This document shows, in pieces, positions 23,415 through 63,083 of a DNA stretch of 64,000 nt. Within the stretch, counting starts at the first letter, position 1. Every line of letters starts with the position of its first letter. Source of the stretch: Tubulanus polymorphus (Eukaryota; Nemertea; Palaeonemertea; Tubulaniformes; Tubulanidae); NCBI RefSeq assembly GCF_964204645.1, contig NC_134032.1:5449175-5513174 (forward strand), given 5' to 3'. A program made the position numbers and the translations under genes. The notes below the pieces were generated by a model that was given only the letters and a program-made list of their open reading frames with translations, was not told the DNA's origin and did no database searches.

Positions 23415-23728
23415 TTATATAATAAAAAAATTAAAATTAAAAATAAAATATTCCTCCTATTACAATTCCTATACAAGTAATAGCTAATTCAGTATTTTCA
23501 TGTGATTTATTATCGTTATTACTTTTAATTATTTCATGTTGAATAATATCAGTTTTTATATTTTCTGTAGTATTGTAATCTTTTATTTAGAATCATTGTC
23601 CAATTTAATATTCTTAGTTTTAGTTTCAGTTGATTGAATATGTTTTTTAATTTTTTCACCTTCCATTAGTTTTGGAGCAGTAATAATCTTTTTATTAATA
23701 TCATTTAATCTAAACTTATTATTTATTG

Positions 23729-28959: not shown

Positions 28960-29875
28960 TCTCGACTTGGTCGGAAAATAAAGCAGTTCGTCATCGAGAA
29001 ATCATCTTGTGCCTTATACGTGTGTTATTATTTTAGGTCGATATTTTAGGTCGACTTAAGTCCGATATTTTGTAATTTCTAACTTTAAGTCCTAAATTTA
29101 CGTGCTGGATTTGTAAATAGTATGTAAATGTACGATTTAATAGTATTATGATATGAAGATTCGATTAATAGTTGTAACGTTGTTGCGCTGATGCAACATG
29201 TATAGTTACGTTTTAGATGTACGATTTAACAGTTTTACGATATGAAGATTCGATTAATAGTTGTAACGTTGTTGCGCTGATGCAACATATATAGTTACGT
29301 TTAATATGCGAATTGATAGTTGTAACGTTTTTGCGCTGATGCAACATGTATAGTTACGTTTTAGATGTACGATTTAATAGTTTTATGATATGAAGATTCG
29401 ATTAATAGTTGTAACGTTGTTGCGCTGATGCAACATGTATAGTTACGTTTTAGATGTACGATTTAATAATATTATGATATTAAGATACGAGTAATAGTTG
29501 TTACGTTGTTGCCCTGATGCAACAGGTATAGTTACGTTTACGTTTAAGATACGAATTAATAGTTGTAACGTTGTTGCCCTGATGCAACAGGTATAGTTAC
29601 GTTTACGTTTAAGATACGAATTAATAGTTGTAACGTTGTTGCTTGATGGAACATGTATTGTTACGTTTAAGATGTACGGTTTAATATTATTACCGGTATG
29701 ATATTGTATTTTATGAAACGATTCTCGACTTGGTCGCAAAATAAAGCAGTTCATCATCTTGTGCCTTATACCTGTGTTATTTTTTTAGATCGTTCTACGT
29801 GACTAGTTCCCGGCTAACACCACAGACAAATTCAACAGTGTTATAATTGGTGGAGAACCCGCGAGCAAGATCTGA
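28960..29875 (+). repeat. LTR-like region with 89-bp tandem repeats
   Basis: The phrase ending AAAATAAAGCAGTTC...CTTGTGCCTTATAC occurs at 28965-29035 and 29725-29790, carrying an AATAAA signal. Between them (29128-29690) lie about six copies, some partial, of an 89-bp unit containing GTTGTAACGTTGTTGCGCTG. Just after, GTTATAATTGGTGGAGAACC resembles an LTR end followed by a primer-binding site. Exact LTR limits could not be fixed. Confidence 0.6.
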
Positions 29876-33657: not shown

Positions 33658-33843
33658 AGTAATAGGGATAATGGGCTTTCATACCAAAGGTCGAAGGGTC
33701 GAGCTCGTAAAAAAATGAAAATAATAATTTACAGTTGAATTAGTCGCGCACACTCCTAATTCAACTGTAAATTATTATTATTTTCATTTTTTACTCACTC
33801 GCCCCTTCAACCTTTGATACGAAAGCCTATTATCCCTATTACT
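33658..33843. repeat. Polinton terminal palindrome C (left end of copy 4)
   Basis: Arms of about 87 bp with roughly ten mismatches flank a 12-base loop, TCGCGCACACTC. The outer arm carries GGTCGAGCTCGTAAAAAA and the inner arm CTCACTCGCCCC. Both ends of the palindrome read AGTAATAGGG / CCCTATTACT. Confidence 0.9.
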
Positions 33844-34037
33844 CTTAAAATATTCACATAAATGAATAACATTTAAATCATTGAACTTCTAAAATCAATT
33901 TTAATAAAAAATATAGTATTAAAATGGAAGCAAATAAGTACTACTGCCCAACATGTAATATCGATATAGATAAATCCCAAAAAGCAAGACACAATAAAAC
34001 TATAACACATTTAGAGAATAAATTGAAACTAGAATAT
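33844..34037. repeat. inner part of left terminal inverted repeat
   Basis: Bases after the palindrome repeat, in inverse orientation, the sequence at about 51478-51672. This includes CTTAAAATATTCA, the AATAAAAAAT promoter-like motif and 38 codons of the polymerase. A few substitutions separate the two. Confidence 0.85.
33899..33926 (+). promoter_or_regulatory. replication-type start motif
   Basis: TTTAATAAAAAATATAGTAT followed by TAAAATGGA. Same form as upstream of the polymerase, because it lies in the terminal repeat. Confidence 0.45.
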
Positions 34038-34921: not shown

Positions 34922-35269
34922 AAAGCTGGCAATTCTATTTGAGCTTTGTATGTATATAATACATAGCTTTTGTTTACTACTAAAACATATGTTGCCAAAT
35001 ATATCTTGTTTTCAATTCTAAAGAATTAATTAACTTCATCATAAAGAACATCTGTGCAGAAGTTATTAGTTTGGTCGAACGTGCGCCACGTTAGCAGTTA
35101 GAAATCAACTTTCACATACATAGTACGTATTGGATATTCTCTCTCAAAACACAGTTTACAGTTCTAAATCTAAATGTAAGTACCGTTTTTTGTAGTTATT
35201 ATGAAGTAGGGAAACCTTTAAACATATTTAAGTACAGTAATTCATTTTCACGACATCTTTTAGATTAAA
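34922..35269. other. Polinton spacer without gene
   Basis: No frame of note. Blocks match the spacer at 4560-4930 of copy 1, in keeping with a shared element arrangement. Confidence 0.5.
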
Positions 35270-36007: not shown

Positions 36008-36421
36008 CGCTAAAATGTGTATAATAAATATATATGTTTATGAAATAGTAATTCCACCAGTCGTTTCTTTGAATTTATTTTCAGTTGAGGATTTGATATC
36101 GAGGATCCGAAATGACTTATCTGGACAGTTATAATTACTGCTCCTAATAGATAGACAATAGTAGTGAGATAATCTAAATCCTAATTTAAATAAAATATAA
36201 TAAAAAAACAATAACTTCAACTAGCTAGTGAATTCTATTAAATTTTTAATATTTTCTTTTCAAAAAGAGAATACTTTATATTTTGAATAGATTCAAATAG
36301 AAATTCTTTAAATTCAAATAGCTAGTATCAGTAGTCAATACTAGAATTCTTTAGCTTTAACTATCTAGTATCATTTGAAGAATACTTATAATACTATTCT
36401 TATTAAATTTCTCTAATATAA
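36008..36421. other. AT-rich spacer with CTAGCTAG-type repeats
   Basis: Contains several short repeats around AACTAGCTAG and TAGTATCA, and AGAATACTT-type words in both orientations. It ends in TTAAATTTCTCTAATATAAATG, which is conserved before this gene in copies 1, 4 and 5 and may be its promoter. Confidence 0.45.
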
Positions 36422-37027
36422 ATGACAAAGAAATCTAATAAAAATAGTATTGATATTGAAAAGACATTAGATGATTTGGGCATAAGTGATAATAATGATA
36501 ATGTGGCAACTAAATGTGATAATAAAATTGATAGTAATATTGATTACGAGTACTATTTATATTGTAAACATCATCTAGAACTATTGATTGCTGGCGGGAA
36601 ATCTAAGGACTTCTTAGGAAAAATAATAACTTTTCAAGAACTAGACTCTATGAAACCCGATAAAGTAATAAAATATTTTAAGATTTATGAAGAGTCAAGA
36701 TTAGCTAGAATAAACGACTCTATAAGTGATGGTATTGTCAAATGTTATTCAAAATTATGTAACCAGTTAATACCAATTGATGATGAAAATAAATTATATA
36801 GTGATTTGAAAAATGACTATTTAGTTATGACTGAATTACAAAAATGGGTTGGATATGCTTCATTTCAATTAGGATCGGTTATGACGTTGATTTCTACTGG
36901 AGTTATAACATTTTCGAACATCAAACCTATGGAATATAAATCAGGTAAGAACGAAACAGATGTACTACAACAAAACATCGAAACAGAAAATGAATCAGAA
37001 CAAAAATTAACTAAAATAAATGAGTGA
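36422..37027 (+). CDS. Polinton small membrane-type protein (201 aa)
   Basis: Complete. Residues 1-40 are polar and lysine/aspartate-rich. Residues 40-140 form a conserved soluble domain (YYLYCKHHLELLIAGGKSK; MKPDKVIKYFKIYEEAR-like). Residues 144-168 are hydrophobic (ASFQLGSVMTLISTGVITF), a likely membrane segment. The tail is acidic. Its end overlaps the start of the next gene by 8 bases (ATGAGTGA). It is the first of four tightly packed genes ending in the packaging ATPase, so it may be made with them. I do not recognise a family. Confidence 0.75.
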   Translation: MTKKSNKNSIDIEKTLDDLGISDNNDNVATKCDNKIDSNIDYEYYLYCKHHLELLIAGGKSKDFLGKIITFQELDSMKPDKVIKYFKIYEESRLARINDSISDGIVKCYSKLCNQLIPIDDENKLYSDLKNDYLVMTELQKWVGYASFQLGSVMTLISTGVITFSNIKPMEYKSGKNETDVLQQNIETENESEQKLTKINE

Positions 37028-37391
37028 TGGAGTTAAGAAAAAGGCTAGATCCGAGAAACAAATTAAATGGGCAAGAGAATTAGGTAAAAGATCTTCAGAA
37101 TTAAAAAAAGCTAAGAAAAAGAAATTAACTGATATAAATGAATCTGATGGTGCCGTACGGCACCCACACGGTGGTATTGATTCAAATAATAATCCATCTA
37201 ATTCTTCTAATGCTGGAAGTAATTATAAATTATATATTACAATTGGATTAGTAACAGTTATTATATTATCCGGTGTAATATATAAATCAAAATTCAAATC
37301 CGATGATAAAGATGATTCTAATGATAATAAACCCATCATACCAGAAAATAAATCAAATGAAAATAAATCTAAAATATTATTAATGGATTAA
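37020..37391 (+). CDS. Polinton small basic membrane protein (123 aa)
   Basis: Complete. The N-terminus is strongly basic with an ARSEKQIKWARELGKRS motif followed by KKAKKKK, a possible DNA-binding or targeting patch. Residues 45-52 read AVRHPHGG, encoded by an inserted GC-rich palindrome that copy 5 lacks at this place. Residues 69-87 (LYITIGLVTVIILSGVIY) form one membrane segment, followed by an acidic/asparagine-rich tail. It overlaps the previous gene and lies 3 bases before the integrase. It is possibly a core or membrane virion protein; this is an inference. Confidence 0.75.
   Translation: MSDGVKKKARSEKQIKWARELGKRSSELKKAKKKKLTDINESDGAVRHPHGGIDSNNNPSNSSNAGSNYKLYITIGLVTVIILSGVIYKSKFKSDDKDDSNDNKPIIPENKSNENKSKILLMD
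37149..37175 (+). repeat. in-frame GC-rich palindromic insert (site 1)
   Basis: GGTGCCGTACGGCACC is a perfect 16-bp palindrome. It is directly followed by CACACGGTGGT, whose CCAC-ACG-GTGG (with the preceding C) can form a second small hairpin. In frame it encodes GAVRHPHGG. The equivalent gene of copy 5 has no such sequence here. The same module occurs at 55274-55300 and 59399-59425. Confidence 0.85.
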
Positions 37392-37394
37392 AAT

Positions 37395-38483
37395 ATGATG
37401 AAAAAAGAACAATATTTAAGAGAGTTATATTATAACCCAGAAAGTGAAGTATCATATTCAAGTGTTTCGGAATTATGGGATAAAATTAAATCTGATAAAG
37501 AAAAAATAAAATATAGTGAATTAAAATCATGGTTACAAAATCAACCCACATATCAAATTCATAAAAAGATGGATAAAAAATATTTAACAAGAAAAGTTAT
37601 GGTTTCATATATCGATCAGCAATGGCAAGCAGATTTAATTGACATGAAAAACTAAGAAGAATATAACAAAGGATATTTTTGGATACTGAATGTTATAGAT
37701 ATATTCAGTAGATACGCATGGAGTATCTCGATTAAAAATAAAACCGGTATAGAAGTAACAAATGCTTTTAAATCTATATTTAAAGAAGCTATTCCAGATA
37801 AAATACAATTTGATGAAGGTAAAGAATTTTATAACAAACATTTTAAAAAACTATTATCTGATAACGATGTAGAATATTTTTCAACACATTCAGATAAAAA
37901 AGCATCTGTTATAGAAAGATTTAATAAAACATTGAAAACTAGAATGTGGAAATATTTCACCGCTAATGAAACATATAAATATATCGATGTGTTAGATGAT
38001 TTAGTTAAAGGTTATAATAATTCTAAACATAGTTCTATAAATATGAAACCTATACAAGCTAGAAAAGAAGAAAATTCAGAAATAGTTTGGAATAATTTAT
38101 ATGGAGCATTTGTTACACATGATTTTGGAGAACCTAAATTTAAAATAGGACAACATGTTAGAATTTCTAAATATCGAAAAACATTTTATAAAGGTTATAC
38201 CCCTAATTTTACAGAAGAAATATTTAAAATTAAAAAGATAATATTAACTAAACCATTTGTTTATAAATTGTTTGATTTAAAAGATGAAGAAATATTAGGT
38301 TATTTTTATGAACAAGAATTATCATTAGTACCAAATCCAGATGAAATAGAATACAAAATAGAAAAGGTATCGAAAACAAAAACTCTTAAAGGAAAAAAGT
38401 ATTCTTTGGTGAAATATAAAGGATATGATGATAAATTTAATGAATGGATTTTATCTAGTAAAATTAAAAGAATAAATGAATAA
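37395..38483 (+). pseudogene. INT: Polinton integrase with chromodomain, one in-frame stop
   Basis: Retroviral-type DDE integrase of 362 codons. The catalytic triad lies in WQADLI (first D), QFDEGKEFYN (second D) and VIERFNKTLK (E). The C-terminal 50 residues, IEYKIEKVSKTKTLKGKKY then YKGYDDKFNEWI, form a chromodomain that would bind histone marks and direct integration. A TAA at 37653-37655 interrupts codon 87, shortly after the first catalytic D, and about four codons are missing near 37985 relative to copy 5. It is otherwise open throughout. The start ATG at 37395 lies 3 bases after the previous gene, and the end overlaps the ATPase start by 8 bases. Confidence 0.9.
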
Positions 38484-43504: not shown

Positions 43505-43524
43505 TTACATAATAAAAAAATTAA
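43502..43524 (-). promoter_or_regulatory. virion-type start motif of coiled-coil gene
   Basis: Minus strand: TTAATTTTTTTATTATGTAA then ATGG. T7 run, then TAAATG. Confidence 0.5.
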
Positions 43525-44909
43525 AATTTAAAATATAATATTCCTCCGATTACAATTCCTATACAAGTTATAGCTAATTTAGTATTTTCATGGGATTTAT
43601 TATCATCATTTAGTTTAATTATATCATGTTGAATTTTATCAGTTCTATTATTTTCTGTAGTATTGTAATCTTTTATTTTAGAATCATTATCCAATTTAAT
43701 ATTTTTAGTTTTAGTTTCAGTTGATTGAATATGTTTTTTATTTTTTTCACCTTCCATTAATTTTGGAGCAGTAATAATCTTTTTATTTATATCATTCAAT
43801 CCAAATGAATTATTTATTGTTGCAGTTTTAATTAGATTTTTATAACCAATTATGTTTCCCATCTTTAATACTAAATCATTAGAAATAATTAATAGATTAG
43901 GGCCTATACAATAATTTAGTCTTACATGAGATTTATCTAAATAATTTTGATATCTTATAATGTTTTCTGGAATCGATCTATTTTTATCATTATGAATTGA
44001 ATCTTCAAATAAAACTTTAAACTGTTTTTGTGTATCGAATGATGTATTCAAATTTCCAATTATCGGTGATCTTGTTTCAACTTGTGATCCTAGAATACAA
44101 ATCAAATAAGTTCTAATAGATTGATTTATTCTTTCTATACCTGATTTAGTAAAACCTTCACTATTTTCTAAAATAAAATAAACCCAACCATTATTGTTTT
44201 CTTGTTTTAGATTATCATAAAATTTCGGTAATTTATTGAAATTTAATGTTTCTAAATCCTTTGTTTCTATTTTACCATAACCTAATTTTTTATTATAGAT
44301 ATTATAAAAACTATTAGATGGTATGGGAAGTGCACAATATTCTGCAATCTTTCTAGGGCAAGGAAGTGATCTTATTGTTCCTATTTTTATTCTAAAATCA
44401 GAATTATTTATATCTATATTAAATTCATTGCAAATTTTATAAAACTTAGATAAATTAATATTATTATCCAATTCTTTGAAATACCTAGATCCTGGTAAAG
44501 CGCACTCTAATTCATTTAATATTATTCTGATTTGAAAGTATGTATGAAATCTAAATAAACTTTGAATTAGTTTATATTTAGAATTATTTAAATGATCATT
44601 CCAACTAATTCCACATCCTGTTGTTGCACAATAAACAGCAAAATTTAATTGATTCTGCCAATACTTCATATTAGATTTTAATAACCATTGTTTTTCATCT
44701 TTCAATTTTTTAAAATTAATTAAATATACATGAAATATATTTTCCATCTTTGCATTAAAATTATTAGTTTCAGTAACATAAATTTCTAAATTAGTTAATG
44801 AATCTAAAACTTCATTTCTATATGTAATATCTTTATTAAAATCTATTGCAGGAATATTATATTTAATTGATTTATTATATTGGAAAGCTTTTGGAAAACT
44901 ATCTACCAT
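43521..44909 (-). CDS. Polinton conserved protein with C-terminal membrane anchor (462 aa)
   Basis: Complete. Conserved stretches include NFAVYCATTGCGISWNDHL (about residues 91-109), SRYFKELDNNINLSKFYKIC, WVYFILENSEGFTKSGIERI and ETRSPIIGNLNTSFD. The end is lysine-rich, followed by a final hydrophobic helix, LAITCIGIVIGGILYF. The size and the constant position beside the coiled-coil and capsid genes in all copies suggest a virion protein. I recognise it as recurring in Polinton-type elements, but not its function. No protease or polymerase motif is visible. Confidence 0.8.
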   Translation of the reverse strand: MVDSFPKAFQYNKSIKYNIPAIDFNKDITYRNEVLDSLTNLEIYVTETNNFNAKMENIFHVYLINFKKLKDEKQWLLKSNMKYWQNQLNFAVYCATTGCGISWNDHLNNSKYKLIQSLFRFHTYFQIRIILNELECALPGSRYFKELDNNINLSKFYKICNEFNIDINNSDFRIKIGTIRSLPCPRKIAEYCALPIPSNSFYNIYNKKLGYGKIETKDLETLNFNKLPKFYDNLKQENNNGWVYFILENSEGFTKSGIERINQSIRTYLICILGSQVETRSPIIGNLNTSFDTQKQFKVLFEDSIHNDKNRSIPENIIRYQNYLDKSHVRLNYCIGPNLLIISNDLVLKMGNIIGYKNLIKTATINNSFGLNDINKKIITAPKLMEGEKNKKHIQSTETKTKNIKLDNDSKIKDYNTTENNRTDKIQHDIIKLNDDNKSHENTKLAITCIGIVIGGILYFKF

Positions 44910-47557: not shown

Positions 47558-50500
47558 TTAACACGTTAGAATCCTTTTCATAATCTCATTTTCTTTTGTT
47601 TCTTCTCTTTTGAATTTTATATATTCATCTAAATTGCAACCATAGGCGACTGTGTGGATTCCATCATCTAAAATATATCTTTTATCATCAAATGGATTCA
47701 AACTTATCTTCTCTATCTCTTCAATATACATTTCATGATCTTCAGATCTTAAACATTTCATCTTATGTTTTCTAACTTCTTCATTAAATATACAATTGAT
47801 GTAATCTTTAAAATGAATATTCTTTTCAACAACGCTTTTGGTAATTCCTTTTAACTTTTTAGCTTCATGAGTTTTGGTTTTATATGAATACATTTTAGAT
47901 CTAATACCAATGAACTCTATCATTTCTTCACCACCTAATTCATCTTTGAATTTACCGGGAACTTTTTTATTATCATTGCTAAACAATTCATGATCTTTAG
48001 GATAGTTACTAAAATCAAAATGATGTTTTAATGTTTTTAAATCATCAGTTATGTTATCAGTTTTTATCTTTAATATATAACTGTCAGTATCAAAGTATAG
48101 AATTTCTATGTGTTTTTCTCCAAAATGAGGTTGTAGTATATTATAGTAAAATTTATACATTAGGAATTTTGATAATTCTAAAACTGCAGCTCCAACATAA
48201 ATCGGTTTGTTAAATTTCATACTTGTTCTTCTCATTTTAACTGCAGCTAAATTTTCATCAAATATTCTGTTACCTATAAACTTAGGATATGATTGTAAAT
48301 GCCTTATCCTTTTACCATTACTAACTAAATCAATATCATTTCTATTTCTAATATTTTCACAAGTTTTTCCATAGAATACATTATTCATTAACTTAAAAAA
48401 ATCTTTTTCAAAATCAGTTTTAGATTTAGTTCTCTGTGTAGTATTAAAATCTATATATTTTTCTAACCATTTAGATTGACTGAATGAAATATATCTATGT
48501 ACTTTTTTTAATATCATTCCTTGATTCAAATAAAACTTCAACATTCTATAATGCACAACGTAATTATATTTATCTTCTTGAGTTACCATTAACTTTTCTG
48601 TATGAATATGATTATCGGGTTTAATTCTTTTTTGATAATTTGATAATTCTTCATGTTTAACAGTTTTATGTTCGGGACAATATGCTAGATTTCTAGATTT
48701 GAATTTAATATTTTCAGGGTATTCTAAATCTACAACGAAGAAGTAACCAATATCTGAATCATCTGCAATATCTAGGATTCTTTTCTTCCAATCAAATTTA
48801 TCAATTTGTAAAACTTCAGTTATTTCAAACATCCCATAAGGTTGTGGTTCCATCATTGCCCAACCATAAAGATTATTTGCATCTATGTACAATAATTTAT
48901 ATCCAGGATTATCATTTACATTGAAATATCTATCACCTAATACACCTGAAACACCTCCTCTTATAGATTTTTCAAATAATAGTAATTGATCTATATTTGT
49001 TAACAAATCCATTTTTATATCTGTAAATTTTAATCCACAATCCCATGTTAATCCTGGTGATGAATAACAATGACATGGATCAATGTTAAAATATTTTAGG
49101 TTTACATCTCTAAACCTTTCGAATATATCGGTTAATAATAATACATCTGATTTTAAATATAAATCTACTAATTGACCATGATTTTCTATTTTGAAATGAT
49201 TCCAAATATTCAATGTTCTATTGTAGACTTCATCTTTAACATATTCATTTTTTAATTCATCATAAAATTGTTCTTTTAATAATTCAGTTATTTTAAAATC
49301 ATTATGATTTTTATAGAAAGAATATGGAATCGCTCCTTTATATCTCATTAATTGGAAATCATCATTATTTGGGTAATATTCTTTTAATATCTTTAATTCA
49401 TCATCAACTAATGATTTTGATAAGTTATCTAATGAACTATTTAAAAATCTATATGAATCTATAAATCTTAGACAACCAAATTGGAATGATATATAATTCT
49501 CAGATGTTTTAGCTAACATTCTAAATTTATAAGTTGGTATTTTATCTTTTGATCTATTTGAATTTAATATTTCTATTTCATTATTGATTTCTTCTATTTT
49601 ATGACATAACTGTTTGATAAATAAATGCGCGTCATACCCCGATAAATTGTGAAATATAATGGGGACAAAATTGATTTTCTTTGCTTGCAAATTACAATTC
49701 TCATGCGCAGCGCCTCTAAACTTTCCATTCAAATGATCATGGTCTCTTACTTTTTTATCTTTATAATTAAATATCTTTTCACAATAATAACATTTATCTG
49801 CAAACGCAAATTCTTCTTTATTTTCTTCTGTCATAATTATTTCTTTATTTGTATTCAATAATTTACTAAATCTTATTTCATATTCAATTAATAAGTCACA
49901 AAAATGATTGATAACATTTTCATTTCTATAATTATAATATTCACTTTCAATTAGTTCTGGATAATCAGATTTAATATATAACCCGAAAGCTGCAGCTGAT
50001 TGATGAATCTTTTTAATAGTATTTGTTTTTGGTGGTTCTTCTGAATAATCACTTTCATTAGAATTTAATTTCTTTCTTTTATAATATATTTCTTTTCTAT
50101 CTTTATCTGTTAATTCTTTATTTAATGATTCAAAATCTCCATATATTACAAATGGTACTTTATTTTTGTAATCATATTTTTTGAATTCTAATATTTTATC
50201 TTTTTCATTTGGTAAAACTAATTTACAATAATCATGATTATCACATAGTTGTTTATGATTTAATAATGTACTTTCATTACTAAATTTATGTAAACATTTT
50301 CTACATAGATATATTTTATTATGGTGATCACTTTCTGTTCTAAAAAATAAATCTATTTGTTTAATCCACATATAATGATTCTCATAATATAGTATATCTA
50401 TAACATCGTTTGAATCATAATCTTTTGATAGATATAAAGGTTCTAATGTATAATGTTTTATGTTGTTACCTTTTGTATTTGGTAATTTGATTAAATCAAA

Positions 50501-51592
50501 TACATTTATCTTTATATTATTATCTCTTTCTATTTTTGGAATATTTTTAATTCTAACAGGATACTTATCTATCTTATAATTATTTTCAAATGGTTTATAA
50601 TGAGTTAATCTAAAACTATGTTGTTTATAATCTTCAACTGGGTGTGAGCAACTTATAATTGTCCATAGAAAACATTTATCATCTTCATTTTGTACATTTA
50701 TTACAGCATTAGTTTTAAATGGTAGTTTAATATAACTTGATGCTTCAATATCTGGTTCTTTCTAATATGATAAATTATTTTCATCAATTGGTTTTGATTT
50801 AGTTAACTTATTATATTTTGTGTTATAAACATGTAAAGTTATAAATATTATCTCATCAAATATTAAACCAGATCCTTCAAAATATTTCTCTTCTATTTTA
50901 GTTTTTATTTCATTATAACATTTATTTAATTTATCATCTATATGTTGTTTAGATATAATATGTTGTGAATGAGAATTTATATTATATATTGGTTTATCTT
51001 CAGATTTTATAAACTTTACTTTAACTGATATACTTATTTTAGGATATTCAACATCTGTAATTATTTTTATTATTTATTTCATATTTTCTAAATGTTTTTT
51101 ATTTTCTTCTATTGTTTTTCCTTTATGAAATTTAAACTCGATAGCTGCTGGACCAATATCACTTTTAAATGCTTCGGTTATCTCTATATCTTTTTTATTA
51201 TCTAATGAATTAATATAATTTCTTACATCTTCCATACATGGTCTTTTATTGTTTAATTTATTTTTTATTCTTTTAATTGTCTTCTGTTTCTTATCGTTAT
51301 CATTATCAAAATAATCTTCACCTAAAATATCATTATTCTTATTTCTAATATGACTTATAGATTTTAAATGTTCTTTATAATATCTTTTATCACTGAATGA
51401 TTGATTACATATATCACATTTGTATGTTTCTTTTTCATTCCTTAATTCTTCTAATTTAGTTTCTAATATATCATCTTCATATTCTAGTTTCAATTTATTC
51501 TCTAAATGTGTTCTAGTTTTATTGTGTCTTGCTTTTTGGGATTTATCTATATCGATATTACATGTTGGGCAGTAGTATTTATTTGCTTCCAT
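47558..51592 (-). pseudogene. POLB: Polinton protein-primed DNA polymerase B, two in-frame stops
   Basis: A single frame of 1345 codons with stops at 51074-51076 (TAA) and 50762-50764 (TAG). The longest open part has 937 codons from 50371. The N-terminus has two C2H2-like fingers (YYCPTCNIDID; YKCDICNQSF). Then come a conserved N-domain, a further finger, the exonuclease motif YGDFES, and an endonuclease-VII-like zinc motif (CYYCEK...DHDH...HENCN). IFHNLSGYDAH follows, then LLYIDANNLYG (motif A), MNNVFYGKTCEN (motif B), YFDTDSY (motif C) and KLKGITKS. It would replicate the element from its ends using a protein primer. The 5' end lies within the right terminal repeat. Confidence 0.9.
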
Positions 51593-51672
51593 TTTAATAC
51601 TAAATTTTTTATTAAAATTGATTTTAGAAGTTCAATGATTTAAATGTTATTCATTTATATGAATATTTTAAG
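51478..51672. repeat. inner part of right terminal inverted repeat
   Basis: The inverse of 33844-34037, with a few differences. It contains the first 38 polymerase codons, their start motif and TATGAATATTTTAAG next to the palindrome. Confidence 0.85.
51590..51616 (-). promoter_or_regulatory. replication-type start motif of polymerase gene
   Basis: Minus strand: TTTAATAAAAAATTTAGTAT then TAAAATGGA. Located in the right terminal repeat. Confidence 0.45.
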
Positions 51673-51940
51673 AGTAATAGGGGTAATAGGCTTTCAAGCT
51701 AAAGGTTGAACGGGCGGGTGAGTAAAAAATGAAAAACATAAAAATAATAACAATTTCTACTTTAATTAGGAGTGAAACTCATAAAAATGAAAAATTAATT
51801 CGAGCGTGTGAGAATTAATTTTTCATTTTTATGAGTTTCGCGAGTAATTCAAGTAGAAATTGTAATTATTTTTATGTTTTTCATTTTTTACGAGCTCGAC
51901 CGTTCGACCTTTGGCTTGAAAGCCTATTACCCCTATTACT
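51673..51940. repeat. Polinton terminal palindrome D (right end of copy 4)
   Basis: 268 bp. The outermost part matches the other palindromes (AGTAATAGGGGTAATAGGC; CTCGACC...). The centre is longer and different: an inner palindrome with GAAACTCATAAAAATGAAAA on both arms around AATTCGAGCGTGTGAG. The outer arm again carries the CGAGCTCGACC-type sequence and the inner arm GGGCGGGTGAG, so polarity agrees with ends B and C. Confidence 0.9.
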
Positions 51941-51954
51941 GTTATCTCCGGTGC

Positions 51955-53253
51955 TCGGTTCGTTCTCTCCGTCGCACCTTCGCCATAATCAACACTTACT
52001 TGAACGTATTAAGAATATTATCCCTGGCAACGACAAATTTATATCATTTGATGTTACTTCCCTTTTTACCAATGTTCCTCTTGGACCTACTCTTGATTTC
52101 TTAAAACGCAGATTACCATCACTTAACATTAACTTCGGCATTCCTACGGATTGTATCATCGACCTTATCTCTATTTGCACGACGGACTCCTTTTTTGAAT
52201 TCAACAATTGTTTTTACGAACAGACATTCGGTATCGCTATGGGAAATCCTCTAAGTCCTATTCTAGCTAATTTATTCCTAGAAAATGTTGAATCTGAAAT
52301 ATTGCCTCTTTACACTGATATTCACCCTAAAATCTGGCTCAGATATGTTGACGATGTTCTGGCTTTGGTTCCCTTTGACTTCAATGTTGATAACTTTCTT
52401 ATATATTTAAACTCCCTTTACCCGTCTCTGGCTTTTACGTATGAATGGGAATCTAATAGTAAAATACCTTTTCTGGATGTGGATCCTTTTTGAAATTCGC
52501 GGTTTATAGGAAACCTACCAACGCTGAATCCTACCTCCATTACTTCTCTTTTACTTCTCCGGATATTAAACTCGGTTTAGCTCAAGGATTATTTCTTCGC
52601 GCTTTGAGAATTTGCGACCCCTCATTTCTACCCGATGAAATTCACCATATTAACCAATCTCTCAAAAACTTGCCTACCCCGATTTCCTATTGAAAAAAGC
52701 TCTACTTAAAGCTCGTACTACGCATTTTAGAAATAACAACCTTAGAACTCCTACGTTGGCTACCGATAAACAGCCTATCATTGTACCGTATGTACCTTTC
52801 CTCGAGAATTCTAAAGTTTCTCTTCGGTCACTAAATAAACAACTCATCTTTAAATACAATAATAAACTTAGTAACATATTGATTAACAACAAACCGAAAA
52901 CCGAATCCCTAAACTGTGGAATTTATAAAATACCTTGTAAAGTTTGCGACAAAGTATATATAGGAGAAACAGGACGGAATCTTAATCAACGCATAAAAGA
53001 GCATAAATTAGATGTAAAAAACTTTAAACCTGAAAGCGGAGTTGCTAGTCATGTTTTTCAGACTTCACACAATTTTGATTTTGCTAATGCTGAATTAGTT
53101 TACCCTTGCAGCGATAAAACTAGAAGACATATTTTGGAATCTGCATTAATTATTGAAAATTCGAACAACGTTGTAAACCTTAACAATGGTTTTTCCCCCC
53201 ATAATAAACTTATATCAAAATTTCTCTGTAAACTGGTTAAACTCAACACTTGA
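51955..53253 (+). pseudogene. PLE reverse transcriptase / GIY-YIG endonuclease, frameshifted
   Basis: The frame is read from the Polinton junction. RT motifs are SFDVTSLFTNVPLG (motif A), FGIAMGNPLSPILANLF and WLRYVDDVLALV (catalytic YVDD). After KIPFLDV the frame shifts near 52487, continues to a stop near 52692, and reopens at 52690 in a third segment. That segment carries CGIYKIPCKVCDKVYIGETG, the GIY-YIG nuclease, and the conserved C-terminus to TGA 53253. The N-terminal RT part is missing. Two lesions plus truncation make it inactive. Confidence 0.85.
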
Positions 53254-54187: not shown

Positions 54188-54790
54188 ATGTCAAAGAAAT
54201 CTAATAAGAATAGTATTGATATTGAAAAAACATTAGATGATTTGGGTATAAGTGATAATAAAGATACAGTTGTAACTAATTGTGCTCAAGTTAATTGTAA
54301 TATAGATTATGAATACTATTTATATTGTAAGCATCATCTAGAACTATTGATTGCCGGTGGAAAAACTAAAGAGTTTTTAACTAAGACTATTACTTTTCAA
54401 GAATTAGATGTTATGAAACCAGATAAAGTAATAAAATATATTAAGATTTATGAAGAAGCTAGATTAGCCCGAATAAATGATTCTATTTCAGATGGTATTG
54501 TCAAATGTTATTCTAAGTTATGTAACCAGTTAATACCAATTAATGATGAAAATAAATTATATAGTGATTTGAAAAATGACTATTTAGTTATGACTGAATT
54601 ACAAAAATGGGTCGGATATGCTTCATTTCAATTAGGATCGGTTATGACATTAATTTCTACTGGTGTCATTACATTTTCGAATATCAAACCTATGGAATAT
54701 AAATCAGGTAAGAACGAAACAGATGTACTACAACCAAACGTCGAAACAGAAAATGAATCAGAACAAAAATTAACTAAAATAAATGAGTGA
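54188..54790 (+). CDS. Polinton small membrane-type protein (200 aa)
   Basis: Complete homologue of 36422-37027, very similar over the whole length. It has a polar start, the YYLYCKHHLELLIAGGK domain, the hydrophobic segment ASFQLGSVMTLISTGVITF and the acidic tail ESEQKLTKINE. It overlaps the next gene by 8 bases, as in copy 4. This confirms the frame and start. No known family. Confidence 0.75.
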   Translation: MSKKSNKNSIDIEKTLDDLGISDNKDTVVTNCAQVNCNIDYEYYLYCKHHLELLIAGGKTKEFLTKTITFQELDVMKPDKVIKYIKIYEEARLARINDSISDGIVKCYSKLCNQLIPINDENKLYSDLKNDYLVMTELQKWVGYASFQLGSVMTLISTGVITFSNIKPMEYKSGKNETDVLQPNVETENESEQKLTKINE

Positions 54791-55152
54791 TAGCGTTAAG
54801 AAGAAGCCTAGATCCGAGAAACAAATTAAATGGGCAAGAGAATTAGGTAAAAGATCTTCAGAATTAGAAAAAAGCTAAGAAAAAGAAATTAACTGATATA
54901 AATGAATCACAGACTTTATCTGATATTGATTCAAATAATAATCCATCTGATTCTTCTAATGCTGGAAGTAATTATAAATTATATATTACAACTGGATTAG
55001 TAACAGTTATTATATTATCCGGTGTAATATATAAATCTAAATTCAAATCTGATGATAAAGATGATTCCAATGATAATAAACCTATTATACCAGCAAATAA
55101 GTCAAATGATAAAGTCATTGAAAATAAACCAAGATTATTATTAATGGATTAA
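54783..55152 (+). pseudogene. Polinton small basic membrane protein, frameshifted
   Basis: Homologue of 37020-37391. The basic start (EKQIKWARELGKRSSEL) is followed by a frameshift near 54868 in an A-rich run. The membrane segment (LYITTGLVTVIILSGVIY) remains downstream. At the place where copy 4 has the GC-rich palindromic insert, this copy has an ordinary AT-rich sequence (ACAGACTTTATCTGATATT). Confidence 0.75.
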
Positions 55153-55158
55153 AATAAG

Positions 55159-56288
55159 ATGAAAAAAGAACAATATTTAAGAGATTTATATTATAACCCA
55201 GAAAGTGAAGTATCATATTCTAACGTTTCAGAATTATGGAATAAAATTAAATCTGATAATGAAAATGGTAATGGTGCCGTACGGCACCCACACGGTGGTA
55301 TAAAATATAGTGAATTGAAATCATGGTTAAAAATCAACCAACAAATCAAATCCACAAGAAAATGGATAAAACTTATTTAACAAGAAAAGTTATGGTTTCA
55401 TATATCGATCAACAATGGCAAGCAGATTTAATTGAAATGAAGAACTTAGAAGAATACAACAAAGGATATTTCTGGATATTAAATGTTATAGACATATTCA
55501 GTCGATACGCATGGTCAATTCCAATCAAAAATAAAACTGGTATAGAAGTGACAAATGCTTTAAAATCAATATTTAAAGAAGCTATTCCAGATAAGATACA
55601 ATTTGATGAAGGTAAGGAATTCTATAACAAACATTTCAAAAAACTATTATCTGATAACGATGTAAAATATTTTTCAACACATTCAGATAAAAAAGCATCT
55701 ATTATAGAAAGATTTAATAAAACATTGAAATCTAGAATGTGGAAATATTTTACTGCTAATGAAACATATATTTATATCGATGAGTCTATAAATATATTAG
55801 ATGATTTAGTGAAAGGTTATAATAATTCTAAACATAGTTCTATAAATATGAAACCTATACAAGCTAGAAAAGAAGATAATTCGGAAATAGTTTGGAATAA
55901 TTTATATGGAGCATTTGTTACACATGATTTCGGTGAACCTAAATTTAAAATTGGACAACACGTTAGAATATCTAAATATAGAAAAACATTTTATAAAGGT
56001 TATACCCCAAATTTTACAGAAGAAATATTTAAAATTAAAAAGATAATATTAACTAAACCTTTTGTTTATAAACTAGAAGATCTAAAAGATGAAGAAATAT
56101 TAGGTTATTTCTATGAACAAGAATTATCACTTGTACCAAATCCAGATGAAATAGAATACAAAATAGAAAAAGTATTGAAAACAAAAACTCTTAAAGGAAA
56201 AAAGTATTCTTTGGTGAAATATAAAGGATACGATGATAAATTTAATGAATGGATTTTATCTAGTAAAATTAAAAGAATAAATGAATAA
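55159..56288 (+). pseudogene. INT: Polinton integrase with chromodomain, one frameshift
   Basis: The N-terminal part (from 55159) and the main part (open from 55323, 321 codons) overlap in different frames. One base is missing near 55325-55335 relative to copy 4. The DDE residues (WQADLI, QFDEGKEFYN, IIERFNKTLK) and the chromodomain (IEYKIEKVLK ... YKGYDDKFNEWI) are intact. Copy 4's stop at codon 87 is not present here. An in-frame GC-rich palindromic insert lies in the N-terminal part at 55274-55300. The end overlaps the ATPase start by 8 bases. Confidence 0.9.
55274..55300 (+). repeat. in-frame GC-rich palindromic insert (site 2)
   Basis: GGTGCCGTACGGCACC then CACACGGTGGT, the same sequence as site 1. 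It encodes GAVRHPHGG inside the integrase N-terminus. The copy 4 integrase lacks it (SDKEKIKYSELK there, SDNENGN plus insert plus IKYSELK here). Confidence 0.85.
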
Positions 56289-56793
56289 AGATTTATTTAT
56301 ATTTGAACCGCATAATATGTTAATAACTGGAGTAACCAACTGTGGTAAAACACATTTCATATTAGATTTGTTAGAAACTATTTATAAGAATCATTTTGAT
56401 AATATAATATTATTCTGTCCTACTTATGAAATGAATAAAACATATAATAGAGATATAGTTAAGATGAAAAAGTTTATTATATTAAATCCTAAAACAGTAA
56501 AAGAAAATTTAGATAATTGTATTAAAATAGCAATTGATACTTATAAAGGATCAAATACATTATTCATTATAGATGATTGCGCAAATTTACATGATTCAAA
56601 AGTTAGAGAAAGTGATTTATTTTATCTAGCTTTCTCTGGGAGACATTTCGGGATAACAACATGGGTTTTAAATCAAAAATATAATTCAATTGTTAAAGTA
56701 CATTATAGAATGTTAAAGTTTTATTTGAATCAAGGAATGATTCTAAAAAAAAAGTACATAGATATATTTCATTCAGCCAATCTAAGTGGTTAG
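56281..56793 (+). pseudogene. packaging ATPase fused to polymerase fragment
   Basis: Residues 1-138 are the ATPase, with Walker A GVTNCGKTHF and Walker B TLFIIDDC intact. After NQKYNSIVK the frame passes directly into polymerase sequence (HYRMLKFYLNQGMILK) at about 56697. It then ends at a frameshift in an A-run near 56750. The ATPase C-terminal 66 residues are absent here; a copy lies at 58598-58785. Confidence 0.85.
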
Positions 56794-57575
56794 AAAAATA
56801 TATAGATTTTAACACCAAACAGAGAACTGAAGCTAAAACTGATTTCGAGAAAGATTTCTTCAAGTTAATGAACAATGCATTCTATGGTAAGACTTGTGAA
56901 AATATTAGAAATAGAAATGATATTGAGTTAGTTAGTAATGGTAAAAGAATTAGACATTTACAATCATATCCTAAGTTCATTGGTAACAGAATATTTGATG
57001 AAAATTTAGCCGCAGTTAAAATGAGAAGAACATCAATGAAATTTAATAAACCAATCTATGTTGGCGCTTCAGTTTTAGAATTATAAAAATTACTAATGTA
57101 TGAATTCTATTATAATGTATTACAACCACTTTTTGGAGAAAAGCATATAGAAATATTATATTTTGATACTGACAGTTACATATTAAGGATAAAAACTGAT
57201 AACATAACTGATGATTTAAAAACATTAAAACATCATTTTGATTTTAGTAATTATCCTAAAAATCATGAATTGTTTAGCAATGATAATAAAAAAGTTCCCG
57301 GTAAATTCAAAGATGAATTAGGTGGCGAAGAAATGATTGAATTCATTGGTATTAGATCTAAAATGTATTCATATACAACTAAAGAACATGAAGCTAAAAA
57401 GTTAAAAGGAATTACCAAAAGTGTAGTAGAAAAGAATATTCATTTCAAAGATTATATCAATTGTATATTCAATGAAGAAGTTAGAAAACATAAGATGAGA
57501 TGTTTAAGATCTGAAGATCATGAAATGTTTATTGAAGAAATTGAAAAGATAAGTCTAAACCCATTTGATGATGAA
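56697..57575 (+). pseudogene. POLB: DNA polymerase B internal fragment
   Basis: A plus-strand piece corresponding to about the last third of the polymerase. It has MNNAFYGKTCEN (motif B, 56868-56905), YFDTDSY (motif C, near 57158-57180), KLKGITKS and the region ending NPFDD. A TAA at 57084-57086 splits it. At about 57575 it joins capsid sequence without loss of frame. Confidence 0.85.
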
Positions 57576-58163
57576 AATATTTCAAGTATAATTCAAACTA
57601 AATACAATCAAGGATTTTCATTATTATATGATTATATTGATAAATTTAAAACCGTAACTATTAATGCAAATGATGAAATAATTAATGAGAATATTAACTT
57701 CCCAAGAAGATCTATTAAAGGTATATTAATATTTTTTACCATTGCAACATATTCTAATGGTGCAATACAGGTTGATAAGTATTATAATCCTGAAATAACA
57801 AAAAAAGAAATAACTATCGAAGGAATAGCAAATAAAATATTTTGTCAAGGAATGAGAATGATAGATCAATGGCCAGAAATTAGAAAACATTTTATGAATG
57901 AAAAGGTAAAATCATCTGAAAATTGTAACATTAATCAAATTGATTATTATACCGGTAATAAATATGCATTATGGTTAGATTTTAGAACAACAGAGGATAA
58001 TTCATTACATGGTTCTGGAAAAAAATTACAAAACACTAAAGATGGAATACAATTATTCATGGCAAAGAAAAAAGGAAGTCTAAATTTCAAAATGCACATT
58101 TATATTATATCTGACGCGCAATTAAATATTGTTAATTCACAATTAGATAGTGTTATGTATTAA
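57096..58163 (+). CDS. chimeric open frame: polymerase B - capsid C-terminus
   Basis: 355 open codons. Residues 1-160 are polymerase from after motif B, including YFDTDSY. Residues 161-355 are the C-terminal half of the capsid protein (ENISSIIQTKYNQGF to LNIVNSQLDSVMY). The join lies at GATGATGAAAAT, where the two sequences share GATGA. The capsid part starts exactly where the capsid fragment at 59688-60347 ends. It is a rearrangement product with no sign of a proper start. Whether it is expressed is unknown. Confidence 0.8.
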   Translation: MYEFYYNVLQPLFGEKHIEILYFDTDSYILRIKTDNITDDLKTLKHHFDFSNYPKNHELFSNDNKKVPGKFKDELGGEEMIEFIGIRSKMYSYTTKEHEAKKLKGITKSVVEKNIHFKDYINCIFNEEVRKHKMRCLRSEDHEMFIEEIEKISLNPFDDENISSIIQTKYNQGFSLLYDYIDKFKTVTINANDEIINENINFPRRSIKGILIFFTIATYSNGAIQVDKYYNPEITKKEITIEGIANKIFCQGMRMIDQWPEIRKHFMNEKVKSSENCNINQIDYYTGNKYALWLDFRTTEDNSLHGSGKKLQNTKDGIQLFMAKKKGSLNFKMHIYIISDAQLNIVNSQLDSVMY

Positions 58164-58195
58164 AATTTTAACTTTAATAAAAATTTATTATATAA

Positions 58196-58603
58196 ATGGA
58201 AGGAGGTAAAGTTTATAAACATATTCCATACATCGATACACATGAAAATAATGATGGTTTATATTATGTAATACCTTGTAATATAGCTTTGATATTTGAT
58301 CCTATTTTCAAAATTTATAAAACTAAACTAATAGAAATCGATAATAATAAAAGTGGTGTAGTTGATAATTTAAGTAATGTAATTGATAATAATGTAATAC
58401 CTACTTCATCTAATAATGTAATACCTACTACATCTAATAATGTAATACCTTCTACATCTAATAATGTAATACCTTCTACATCTAATAATGTAATACCTAC
58501 TACATCTAATAATGCAATAATATTAAATGTTAGTGAAAATAGAAATTATTGTGATTATTGTAATGGTGAATTTTCAAACGCTCCATCAAATTGGAGAATA
58601 TAA
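58196..58603 (+). pseudogene. Polinton zinc-finger protein, truncated, different repeats
   Basis: Begins like the gene at 39672-40739 (MEGGKVY...GLYYVIP) with the same start motif. It has five or six 8-residue repeats of the type NNVIPSTS instead of the IEPKIEDN repeats. It then enters the first zinc finger (YCDYCNGEF) and is cut at about 58598, where ATPase sequence begins out of frame. The fingers and C-terminus are lost. Confidence 0.75.
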
Positions 58604-58785
58604 GATTTCTAGTTTTATTTTATAACAAAGATAAAAAATCTATCCAACAATCATTGGAAGAAAATCAAATTATACCTACTGAGTTACATGATGAATATAT
58701 GAATAAATTAAAGAATAATAAAGGTTCAAAATTATTACTGAGATAACAATTTCCCTATGAACTATGAATATAAGTTTATAAAATA
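58598..58785 (+). pseudogene. packaging ATPase C-terminal fragment
   Basis: Matches 38900-39090: ENIRFLVLFYNKDKKS, QSLEENQIIPTELHDEYMN and the ending YEYKFIK, with a TAA at about 58744. It supplies the part missing from 56281-56793. Confidence 0.75.
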
Positions 58786-59160
58786 ACTATTTATATACCT
58801 ATCCATCTAATACGTATTAAATACGTATTAGATACGTATTAAATACATTAATGCTTAAAACCCCATTTTTAAAATAAAAATTATTCATATAATTTTCAAC
58901 CAATTTATTTTTATTTTTTTCAACTAATATATGAATAAGTTTGAAAATAATAAAGGTTATTTATTATTAATGAGATTTCAATATAAATTTAAAAAAGAAA
59001 TATAATTTAAGGTATTTTCAAATAATATATATTAAATACGTATTGGATACGTATTAGATACGTATTAGATATGTATTAGATACCTTAAATACTTAAAACC
59101 CCCTTTTTTATTTCCTATTATTTTATACAATTTTCATCTAATATTATTATTTGAGTTAAA
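58786..59160. repeat. ATACGTATTAG repeats around a second ATPase-end remnant
   Basis: Two blocks (58808-58870 and 59025-59110) repeat AATACGTATTAGATACGTAT and are each followed by CTTAAAACCCC. Between them, 58931-59005 is a 24-codon frame similar to the last codons of the ATPase (MNKFENNKGYLLLMRFQY). The spacer corresponds to the convergent spacer of copy 4 but has unrelated repeats. Confidence 0.6.
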
Positions 59161-59173
59161 TATAATTAATATC

Positions 59174-59683
59174 TTAATCACTTTCACTATCATACCCTAA
59201 CAATTTTCTCAAATTCTCTACCGAATCTTCTTCTAATTCTTCATTATTTTTATACTTATTCTTCACCCTTTTTACCGAATCTTCATAAATAATTGGTTTA
59301 TTGATATACTTATTAGTCATCTCAACTATATCTTTATTTTCTGATTTAAGTTTCATAGAATCGTTATTATCAATGCGCTTTCCTGTAACTATATCACCAT
59401 GTGGGTGCCATACGGCGCCATTTTCATTATCATCTTTCTTAGTGTTTGACCTTAATATTGTATTTACAATGCTTGATTCTAGTATTTTTTTAGCAGCAGT
59501 TAAATCTAATTCATCATTACTAGGTTCCTTAGATAAAAATTCACCTAATAAATCTTCATATAAATCTTTACCATCTACTTTTTTATTTGAAACAAACTTT
59601 GTAACATAATTAAATGGGTGTTCTATAAATTCTTTTAAACCAACACGTTCTATAACATTAATAATATGTGAATTTGTATTCAT
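59174..59683 (-). CDS. copy-specific protein with palindromic insert (169 aa)
   Basis: An open frame from ATG 59683. No counterpart in copy 4. It is hydrophilic. Residues 1-75 look folded (VIERVGLKEFIEHPFNYVTK; LYEDLLGEFLSKEP). The middle, near residues 86-95, carries the GC-rich palindrome module (NGAVWHPHGD). The end is lysine/glutamate-rich with a VENLRKLLGYDSESD tail. No membrane segment or known motif. It sits where the zinc-finger gene is expected, directly after the truncated capsid gene. It is a possible accessory gene. Confidence 0.65.
   Translation of the reverse strand: MNTNSHIINVIERVGLKEFIEHPFNYVTKFVSNKKVDGKDLYEDLLGEFLSKEPSNDELDLTAAKKILESSIVNTILRSNTKKDDNENGAVWHPHGDIVTGKRIDNNDSMKLKSENKDIVEMTNKYINKPIIYEDSVKRVKNKYKNNEELEEDSVENLRKLLGYDSESD
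59399..59425 (-). repeat. in-frame GC-rich palindromic insert (site 3)
   Basis: Minus strand: GGCGCCGTATGGCACC then CACATGGTGAT. It is the same module as sites 1 and 2 with four substitutions, encoding GAVWHPHGD. As at site 2 it is preceded by AATGAAAAT. Confidence 0.8.
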
Positions 59684-59687
59684 ATGA

Positions 59688-60347
59688 TTATTCAGTTACT
59701 GTGTCATATTCTAAACATATATTCGATAATTTATAACTCATATCTTTATTAACGCTAGATATTACAATTTCATTTACAGGAGCAAATGTTATTTCGAATA
59801 TAACGTCTTCTTGAATTGCGTATTTATATAAAGGTGCATTGTTATTTATCAATTCAAAGTCTAATGGAATTTTATATTTGCTTCCATATATACTTTTTAT
59901 CAATTTATCTACAGCATTAGTTAATATTGCGCTATTAGCTTCTGATCTTAATTTATTTTGGTTTTCTGATTGGATGCCTTGAAATATCATATTATTTCTA
60001 TTTTCTTTAGTTAACCATAAATCTTTATAATGCATAAATAAATTATAATCATCTAATGAGAAAACTGTTTCTGGACCAATTTTTATTGTTAATTTTTTAA
60101 TCAAATATCTTCCAACATTATCAACAACATAATTATTATTATTACCGATTACTTTTATATCAGCTGATAAATAAATACTATTTGGAACATAAAAAGTATT
60201 TTGTGTTAATCTACGAATTCTAACATATAAAGTTTCATCAGGATTAATATTAGAAGGGTTATGAGTAATTATATGATGTGATCTTTCTGCTTTAATAGCA
60301 TTAGATATTCTATGATTCTTAGAAGGATTGATATAACTCCCACTCAT
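59688..60347 (-). pseudogene. MCP: Polinton major capsid protein, N-terminal half
   Basis: 219 codons matching the first half of the intact capsid (ETLYVRIRRLTQNTFYVPNS; FMHYKDLWLTKENR; FEITFAPVNEIV). It ends after EYDTVTE with an immediate TGA. The second half starts at the same position within the chimeric frame at 57575. The virion-type start motif (T-run, TAAATAAATG) is present. Confidence 0.85.
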
Positions 60348-60387
60348 TTATTTAACAAAAAAATTAATTATTTATTTTTGATCATGG

Positions 60388-61937: not shown

Positions 61938-61954
61938 TTACATAATAAAAAAAA

Positions 61955-62815
61955 TTAAAATTTAAAATATAATATTCCTCCGATTACAAATCCTATACAA
62001 GTTAAAGCTAATTTAGCATTTTCATGGGATTTCTTATCATCATTAGTTTTAATTATATCATGTTGAATAATATCAGTTTTAATATTTTCTGATGTATTGT
62101 AATCTTTTATTTTAGAATCATTATTTAATTTAATATTATTAGTTTTAGTTTCAGTTGATTGAATGTGTTTTTTATTTTTTTCACCTTCCATTAATTTTGG
62201 AGCAGTAATAATCTTTTTATTTATATCATTCAATCCAAATGAATTATTTATTGTTGCAGTTTTAATTAGATTATTATAACCAATTATATTTCCCATCTTT
62301 AATACCAAATCATTAGAAATAATAAATAGATTAGGGCCTATACAATAATTTAATCTAATATGTGTTTTATCTAAATAATTTTGATATCTTACAATGTTTT
62401 CTTGAATCGATCTATTTTTATCATTATGAATGGAATCTTCAAATAATACTTTGAATTGTTTCTGCGCATCGAATGAAGTGTTATCATTTCCAATTATTGG
62501 GGATCTTGTTTCAACTTGAGCACCTAAAATACATATCAAATAAGTTATAATAGATTGATTTATTCTTTGTATACCAGCTTTAGTAAAACCTTCACTATTT
62601 TCTAAAATGAAATTAACCCAACAATTATTATTTTGTTGTTGTATATTATTATAATATTTTGGTAATTCATTCCAATTTAGTGTTCTTATATCTGAATTTG
62701 TCATTATTTTTCCAAATTCTTTAGTATATAATATTCCTAATCCACCCATTGTTCCAATTTTTGCTCTAAAAGCTTTATTTGAATTAATATTAAATTCATT
62801 ACATATTTATAATGT
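61955..62815 (-). pseudogene. 462-aa Polinton protein, N-terminus deleted
   Basis: Matches the last 270 or so residues of the gene at 43521-44909: ENSEGFTKAGIQRINQS, ETRSPIIGN, DKTHIRLNYCIGPNLFII and the C-terminal hydrophobic helix LALTCIGFVIGGILYF. It is readable upstream to about 62805, where a (TATATATGTG) tract joins it to the ssDNA-binding-like gene. The first 185 or so residues are missing. Confidence 0.8.
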
Positions 62816-63054
62816 GTATATATATGTGCATATATATGTGTATTTCCTTTTAATCCTTCATATTCTAAGTGTATAACTAATTTATCTCCATATTTGTTAG
62901 TAACTGTATCAATATTTGTAATTAGATATTTCTTATGGATTATTAATTCTTTTAAGTTCTTAAATTTATAATCTACTGATTTGACATTTGAAGTATCTTT
63001 TATTCTATCTAGAAATGATTTGTTGTTCTCACTGTGCGCTTGTTTACTCTCCAT
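62737..63054 (-). pseudogene. ssDNA-binding-like protein, fused out of frame
   Basis: Residues 1-71 match the 113-aa protein, with a few extra residues near 9-11 (KYLITNIDTVTNKYGDKLV; HLEYEGLKGNT). It then runs through a TATATGTG repeat into the 462-aa type gene in the wrong frame. The C-terminal RFHRLSSEDLEEL part is lost. The replication-type start motif is present. Confidence 0.75.
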
Positions 63055-63083
63055 TTATAATACATATTTTTATTAAAATTTGA

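Follow-up and report, generated by a model that had tools for sequence, protein, structure and literature searches.

How does one GC-rich block of DNA come to be read, each time in frame, inside three unrelated genes of a virus-like transposon? The question arises from a 64,000-nucleotide stretch of the Tubulanus polymorphus genome, here called the window. A sequence-only reading had reported such a block in the 123-amino-acid (aa) gene of element copy 4, the integrase gene of copy 5, and a 169-aa gene, at positions 37149, 55274, and 59399. We found the module at all three places; the second start is off by one base (55273), and 59399 lies inside the third copy, which spans 59393-59419. The module is a GC-rich, hairpin-forming unit of 27 bp with a 16-bp palindrome as its core, and the chance expectation for this 16-mer in the window, with up to 3 mismatches, is 0.01. 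The copies in the window, and the six bases ahead of the second, are as follows.

37149..37175, plus strand: module at site A, exact, inside the 123-aa gene (37020-37391), read GAVRHPHGG
55273..55299, plus strand: module at site B, exact, in the N-terminal part of the copy 5 integrase, read GAVRHPHGG
59393..59419, minus strand: module at site D, inside the 169-aa gene (59174-59683), read GAVWHPHGD
55267..55272, plus strand: GGTAAT just 5' of the site B module, copy 5

The common frame GAV(R/W)HPHG(G/D) proposed for the three genes holds in each of them. At site D, the palindrome carries two mismatches and W replaces R. Sites B and D do share the preceding AATGAAAAT, as had been noticed, with the qualification that GGTAAT stands between AATGAAAAT and the module at site B. 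Other genomic copies at site B have the same arrangement, but with GGTGAT ahead of an intact module, and the GGTAAT is possibly a changed remnant of another module's tail (GGTGAT). The integrase frame of copy 5 is broken slightly downstream of the module. The unit begins with GGTG and ends with GGTGRT, a direct repeat; its inverted arms are internal, so there are no terminal inverted repeats of the MITE type. The surroundings had been described as about 75% AT, which agrees with the GC content of 23.5% measured for copy 4.

Copy 4 encodes a family-B viral-type DNA polymerase (PF03175, 6.5e-15) and an A32-like packaging ATPase (PF04665, 1.2e-12). The integrase, scanned in another locus (L035), gave an rve match of 1.6e-07 at 32.0 bits, just under the cut-off of 32.6, and the closest integrase homologues among the 120 listed of 2562, of which the closest four are 76-81% identical, carry PF00665. 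Because of the polymerase, the ATPase, and an integrase whose close homologues carry the domain, Polinton/Maverick seems a fair label for the carrier. The major capsid candidate matched Capsid_N at 0.0062, below the cut-off, and had no PDB sequence match. An inverted repeat (267 nt, 94%, arms 17.4 kb apart) lies near the putative ends of copy 4.

33771..34037, plus strand: left arm of the inverted repeat, 267 nt, near the end of copy 4
51479..51745, minus strand: right arm, pairing with 33771..34037

Several other features of the window were recorded. Copy 5 (54188-63455) is rearranged, with ATPase-polymerase and polymerase-capsid joins, a split capsid gene, inverted segments, and a broken integrase frame. 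Beside the right repeat of copy 4, at 51831-53253, are two open reading frames (ORFs) that by eye look like a Penelope-type reverse transcriptase and a GIY-YIG endonuclease. A second, different element hairpin, the GC-rich AACGTGCGCCACGTT, is intergenic in copy 4 at 35078-35092. Its palindrome has near copies at 4711 (1 mismatch) and 1893 (3 mismatches), against 0.28 expected, and these may represent one position across different copies of the element. For the GC-rich spot at 54050, no second copy was found within the window. At 29036-29540, a 179-nt direct repeat occurs in five overlapping copies, spaced 89, 89, 59, and 89 nt; NNVIPTTSN/NNVIPSTSN units are repeated in a 135-aa ORF at 58196-58603; and an internal TTAGGG array lies at 8287-8304.

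We screened the genome (268 Mb, 77 contigs) for further copies, as the sequence-only reading had proposed. The exact 16-bp palindrome occurs 143 times and the 27-mer, allowing up to 3 mismatches, at 499 places, while reversed-pattern controls gave 0 in both cases. The palindrome is followed by CACAC in 75 copies and by CACAT in 60; thus, the asymmetric tail is part of the unit in 135 of the 143. Copies lie on a 32-Mb contig and at megabase positions of other contigs, i.e., not in mitochondrial DNA. All 14 exact palindromes of the 32-Mb contig fall within 14.0-18.8 Mb, its middle part. On other contigs, exact palindromes look bunched in a similar way. Viral contigs searched with a 20-mer and a degenerate 23-mer gave no exact match to the module, nor did a prokaryote genome collection searched with the degenerate 23-mer.

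These copies recur at seven positions in Polinton-type elements. Six are coding (A, B, C, C2, D, and F) and one is intergenic (E); the coding positions span four genes, holding A and F, B, C and C2, and D. We fetched 60 of the 135 tailed exact-copy loci (the first 30 of the 75 and the first 30 of the 60, in contig order), and all 60 fell at known positions: 25 at C, 19 at B, 13 at E, 2 at A, and 1 at C2, with one of those under C (L021) placed by eye from a decayed C-like context. Site patterns joining a portion of the module to its flank, with up to 3 mismatches, matched 151 places for B, 80 for A, 79 for C, 65 for E, and 52 for D, together 427, with one place counted under both C and D. Subtracting these from the 499 near copies leaves about 70 outside the five sites, although the mismatch rules of the two counts differ. 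Among 100 listed near copies, 82 were compared, and 60 of these lay at the five sites; some of the 22 elsewhere may be B, since the B comparison used 100 of the 151 B matches. Position F, close to where the 123-aa gene begins, was filled in 1 of 15 loci (L057), with a diverged copy. At a further place (site G, L025 and L039), a 6-bp GACGCT insertion in the 201-aa gene gives DAVLQPNG, with a faint likeness to the module; we left it out of the position count because the difference there is only 6 bp.

For two of the three genes, it had been claimed that another copy in the window lacks the module, and this proved correct: the 123-aa gene is empty in copy 5 and the integrase in copy 4. Sites C, E, and F also have empty forms in the window.

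54924..54925, plus strand: empty site A, copy 5, reading TCTGAT^ATTGATTC (here and below, the caret marks the junction)
37505..37506, plus strand: empty site B, copy 4 integrase
43649..43650, minus strand: empty site C, copy 4, 462-aa gene (43521-44909), with filled forms in other genomic copies such as L084
62083..62084, minus strand: empty site C, copy 5, 264-aa ORF (61955-62749)
23559..23560, minus strand: empty site C, another element copy
36170..36171, plus strand: empty site E, copy 4, upstream of the 201-aa gene (36422-37027), with filled forms elsewhere in the genome
3291..3292, minus strand: empty site E, another element copy
37030..37031, plus strand: empty site F, at the beginning of the 123-aa gene, with L057 as the filled form

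At A, B, C, C2, E, and F, the filled form is longer than the empty one by exactly 27 bp; at D, no empty copy was read. At site C, the adjacent flanks of L084 (filled) and L093 (empty) are identical, and the two differ by the 27 bp. Empty C junctions read GAAAAT^ATAAAAAC, GAAAAT^ATTAAAAC, or GAAAAT^AATAGAAC, and empty E junctions read GAGAT^AT(C/T)AAAT or GAGAT^AATCT. A substitution is present at the junction at F and in the sole plainly empty B, that of copy 4. The insertion context is AT-rich DNA after nAT and usually before AT. Target duplications had been suggested as something to look for, and AT does stand on both sides at most sites, yet the insert can be written either as GGTGCC...GGTGAT, 27 bp with nothing duplicated, or as 25 bp with a 2-bp AT duplication, and both fit equally. 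Copies ending in GGT (those at A and part of those at B) show no AT duplication.

Two modules stand in a row at C in three loci (L030, L033, and L041). At B, 1 of 30 copies has been emptied and reads GAAAATGGTGATATA, keeping GGTGAT, a six-base leftover as would be expected from a deletion between the module's two GGTG repeats. Two further B copies of the 30 read GATAATGGTGGTATA and may be the same remnant, further changed.

To give the insertions a direction, we compared sites B and C with homologues from other elements. The motif stood at site B in none of the 120 integrase homologues listed of 2562, 103 of which align across the site, and at site C in none of 95 homologues of the 462-aa protein, 30 of which align across it. 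The five closest of the latter (65-69% identical) read SEN^IKTD, SEN^ITTD, YEN^IKTD, SEN^ITTD, and NEN^IKTD. Three homologues (P0017, P0108, and P0117) have GAVR or GAVW strings away from the sites. Some integrase homologues have longer loops at site B, so this place tolerates inserts. Since homologues from other elements are empty there, the module is derived at both sites, and we reject the idea that it is ancestral coding sequence at either. A search for homologues of the 123-aa gene, at an E value of 0.001, gave none. The comparison with outside homologues demonstrates gain at B and C only. The module is not at the same place in all homologous genes, and further copies exist in the hundreds. 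With the empty orthologous sites, they uphold the view that this is an in-frame insertion in unrelated Polinton genes.

Flank trees were used to follow the filled and empty states. For C (49 rows, 21 filled and 28 empty), the tree needs at least 9 state changes, 5 of them forced by well-supported branches; before five rows with long or odd branches were dropped, it had 54 rows and 12 changes. Filled and empty rows at C nevertheless cluster more tightly than in nearly all label shuffles (0 and 1 of 500 were as low), and much of the filled state at C is thus inherited. The E tree (13 filled, 11 empty) takes 7 changes, of which 6 are forced, and 141 and 149 of 500 shuffles were as low; the alignment is doubtful for three filled loci (L037, L053, and L061) because their flanks are about 45% different from the nearest empty row. 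For A (6 filled, 20 empty), one change is enough, which fits one insertion followed by inheritance in one clade. At C, the left markers GAAGAT and GAAAAT each occur with filled and empty forms (filled with GAAGAT in L030 only), as do the right markers AATAG and ATAAA, all within about 3 bp of the junction. To account for this interleaving at C and E, the module must have been gained repeatedly, lost exactly, or exchanged through breaks lying right at the junction.

Among the 40 best flank matches, 30 were listed as filled at A (with the A-B flank) and 4 at C, the rest not being listed as filled; 30 of the 40 places of the C flank were fetched, and 2 of these 30 were filled. These frequencies are limited by samples picked by exact module and by flank identity. 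Likewise, the identity of the module across diverged elements is partly a matter of sampling, because filled loci were chosen by exact match.

Taken together, we believe that the module is probably a non-autonomous mobile hairpin micro-element living in a Polinton family. The suggestion that it moves or is gained holds for gain at B and C, whereas site A fits a single insertion; active movement is something we infer. The strongest competing account supposes that the module entered each of about seven positions once, by an accident of templated repair, and that recombination, gene conversion, and occasional deletion made the pattern patchy with no ongoing mobility. It draws on the single filled clade at A, the clustering at C, a last codon that is specific to the site (GGT in 6 of 6 filled A copies and GAT in 16 of 16 filled E copies), and the abundance of Polinton sequence (724 and 974 first-look candidates for two flanks). 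Since most copies sit at few positions, only about seven insertions at new sites are needed, which counts against mobility. However, the interleaving at C and E, with C markers some 3 bp away in all combinations, would require breakpoints almost at the junction, and near-identical module DNA in unrelated genes still takes about seven copying events. We therefore regard few old insertions as a serious but unlikely account.

We next consider whether the module is kept for a function. At six of six coding positions it lies in sense orientation and phase 0 with the nine-residue reading, which answers the question of frame bias that the sequence-only reading had raised. The genes concerned lie on both strands of the element, those of A, B, and F on one and those of C, C2, and D on the other. 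Five of the six frames are stop-free for the GAT form and all six for the GGT form; because most frames are stop-free, the shared frame is not merely stop avoidance. The chance of shared orientation and phase is about 3e-4 by plain arithmetic with five frames taken as equally likely. The bias probably arises in one of two ways: insertions are filtered for a hydrophilic peptide where the protein is linker-like, or one coding site serves as the source for another.

Folding of the module had also been proposed. As DNA and as RNA, it is predicted to form two adjacent stem-loops, one of 6 bp with a 4-base loop and one of 3 bp with a 3-base loop, in all three variants folded. The fold is not unusually stable, with z scores of -1.2 to -1.7 and 13 to 27 of 200 shuffles folding at least as well. 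In 19 copies not chosen by exact match, changes fell at 21 of 133 loop positions and 9 of 342 stem positions (p 9e-7); the 15 different sequences among them have 19 loop and 8 stem changes. This excess is suggestive only: two CpG cytosines (positions 10 and 21) account for most of it, and the copies are related to one another.

A selected signal, in which the peptide, the RNA hairpin, or the DNA palindrome serves the Polinton as a binding site or as a processing or packaging signal, would account for the single orientation and phase and for loops changing more than stems. However, empty copies are frequent (of the 40 best matches for each site, 10 at A and 36 at C were absent from the filled lists), R to W and last-codon changes are common among copies, the loop excess is mostly those two CpG cytosines in related copies, and site E lies outside genes. 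We consider this explanation improbable. Still less credible is a bypass like that of Byp inserts, with ribosomes hopping from the first GGT codon to the second and skipping the insert: phase 0 at all coding positions and matched GGT codons flanking the hairpin would suit it, but the inserts keep the frame and hold no in-frame stop, so that bypass is unneeded, and translation would be cytosolic, not mitochondrial. An assembly, adapter, or chance origin, to which a short, palindromic, GC-rich unit resembling an artificial linker might point, is rejected as practically negligible given hundreds of copies at few positions, graded mutations, precise empty sites, and control counts of 0.

The mobile hairpin element that we propose can be compared with several known systems, as far as the cited accounts describe them. 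Yeast mitochondrial GC clusters (GC42, var1) are likewise short GC-rich palindromes in AT-rich DNA that are polymorphic between copies. They include in-frame var1 insertions, a putative AG/ACT/TAG target duplication, footprints, and mergers (PMC8811140; PMC4478555). In GC42, loop changes exceed stem changes, and how such short hairpins multiply in yeast mitochondria is described as unsettled (PMC4478555); breaks at GC-rich sequences there have been reported (cited in PMC2800124). By these descriptions, GC clusters are mitochondrial and mostly intergenic, GC42 being 42 nt, whereas the module lies on nuclear-type contigs, measures 27 bp, and is mostly coding. Fungal mitochondrial double-hairpin elements share two adjacent stem-loops, GC richness, and potential mobility (PMC10085805; PMC2800124). 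As described, they lie between genes or in an rRNA gene of mitochondria, whereas the module is in frame in protein genes. Their size range and twinned copies are reportedly a further likeness.

Rickettsia palindromic elements, to which the module had been likened, are palindromic, in frame in unrelated genes, and conserved in peptide reading (PMC10969869). The comparison is apt for in-frame translation, but those elements are described as about 150 bp long, bacterial, and of ten families. At 27 bp, with AT-rich surroundings and a double-hairpin shape, the module fits the mitochondrial GC clusters and double-hairpin elements better. Byp inserts of Magnusiomyces mitochondria are also short and occur at many places in coding genes (PMC5009743; PMC8811140); by that account Byp disrupts the frame and is skipped by ribosomes, whereas the module keeps the frame. 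PARCEL repeats share dyad-symmetric coding DNA that is thought to be shuffled between genes (PMC2996958), but are described as tandem amphipathic repeats of 25 residues, whereas the module has nine residues and occurs singly or twice. Nematomorpha mitochondrial palindromes are inverted repeats within coding sequence (PMC6649704); in that description they reach 284 bp, code conserved regions, and do not appear as dispersed insertions. By analogy, the module appears to work like the mitochondrial elements and to resemble the Rickettsia elements in being translated. We file it under none of these classes because location or size fails, and in the open-licence literature we found no description of such in-frame palindromic inserts in Polintons.

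How might such a unit spread? We favor a route in which Polinton or host enzymes cleave the hairpin and copy it. In single-stranded or supercoiled Polinton DNA, the palindrome would extrude to form a hairpin or cruciform, be cut, and then act as donor in repair. Copies of the module would in this way reach homologous sites that are still empty in other Polinton copies and, now and then, AT-rich places that are new to it. The module is far too short for a gene, and the enzyme must therefore act in trans; candidates are an endonuclease VII-like or HNH-like protein of the Polinton, or host repair. One such domain lies in copy 4.

49685..49831, minus strand: endonuclease VII-like domain (PF02945), inside the family-B polymerase ORF (47558-50371)

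The match scored 24.1 bits against a cut-off of 23.6. Phage T4 endonuclease VII resolves cruciforms, and this domain of the polymerase is a candidate for the hairpin-cutting activity. Since the insert is 27 bp long and is read GAVRHPHGD/G, insertions in linker-like stretches would be tolerated and persist. A deletion that joins the two GGTG direct repeats, with six bases left behind, would be one route of loss. In its most specific form, which we put forward tentatively, the module would be a 27-bp double-hairpin hyperparasite of a virus-like transposon that spreads within Polinton copies and from one to another via its own cruciform, cut by the endonuclease VII-like activity of the polymerase, and is harmless as a nine-codon linker in a preferred frame.

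Hundreds of copies of the module can be aligned at few positions of a virus-like element in a large genome. Together with outgroups, empty sites, and remnants, they allow gain, loss, and conversion to be tallied. The module also points to a route by which one short peptide gets added to unrelated proteins of a virus-like element. If the hyperparasite reading is true, the module would be among the shortest mobile units and a nuclear counterpart of the mitochondrial GC clusters.
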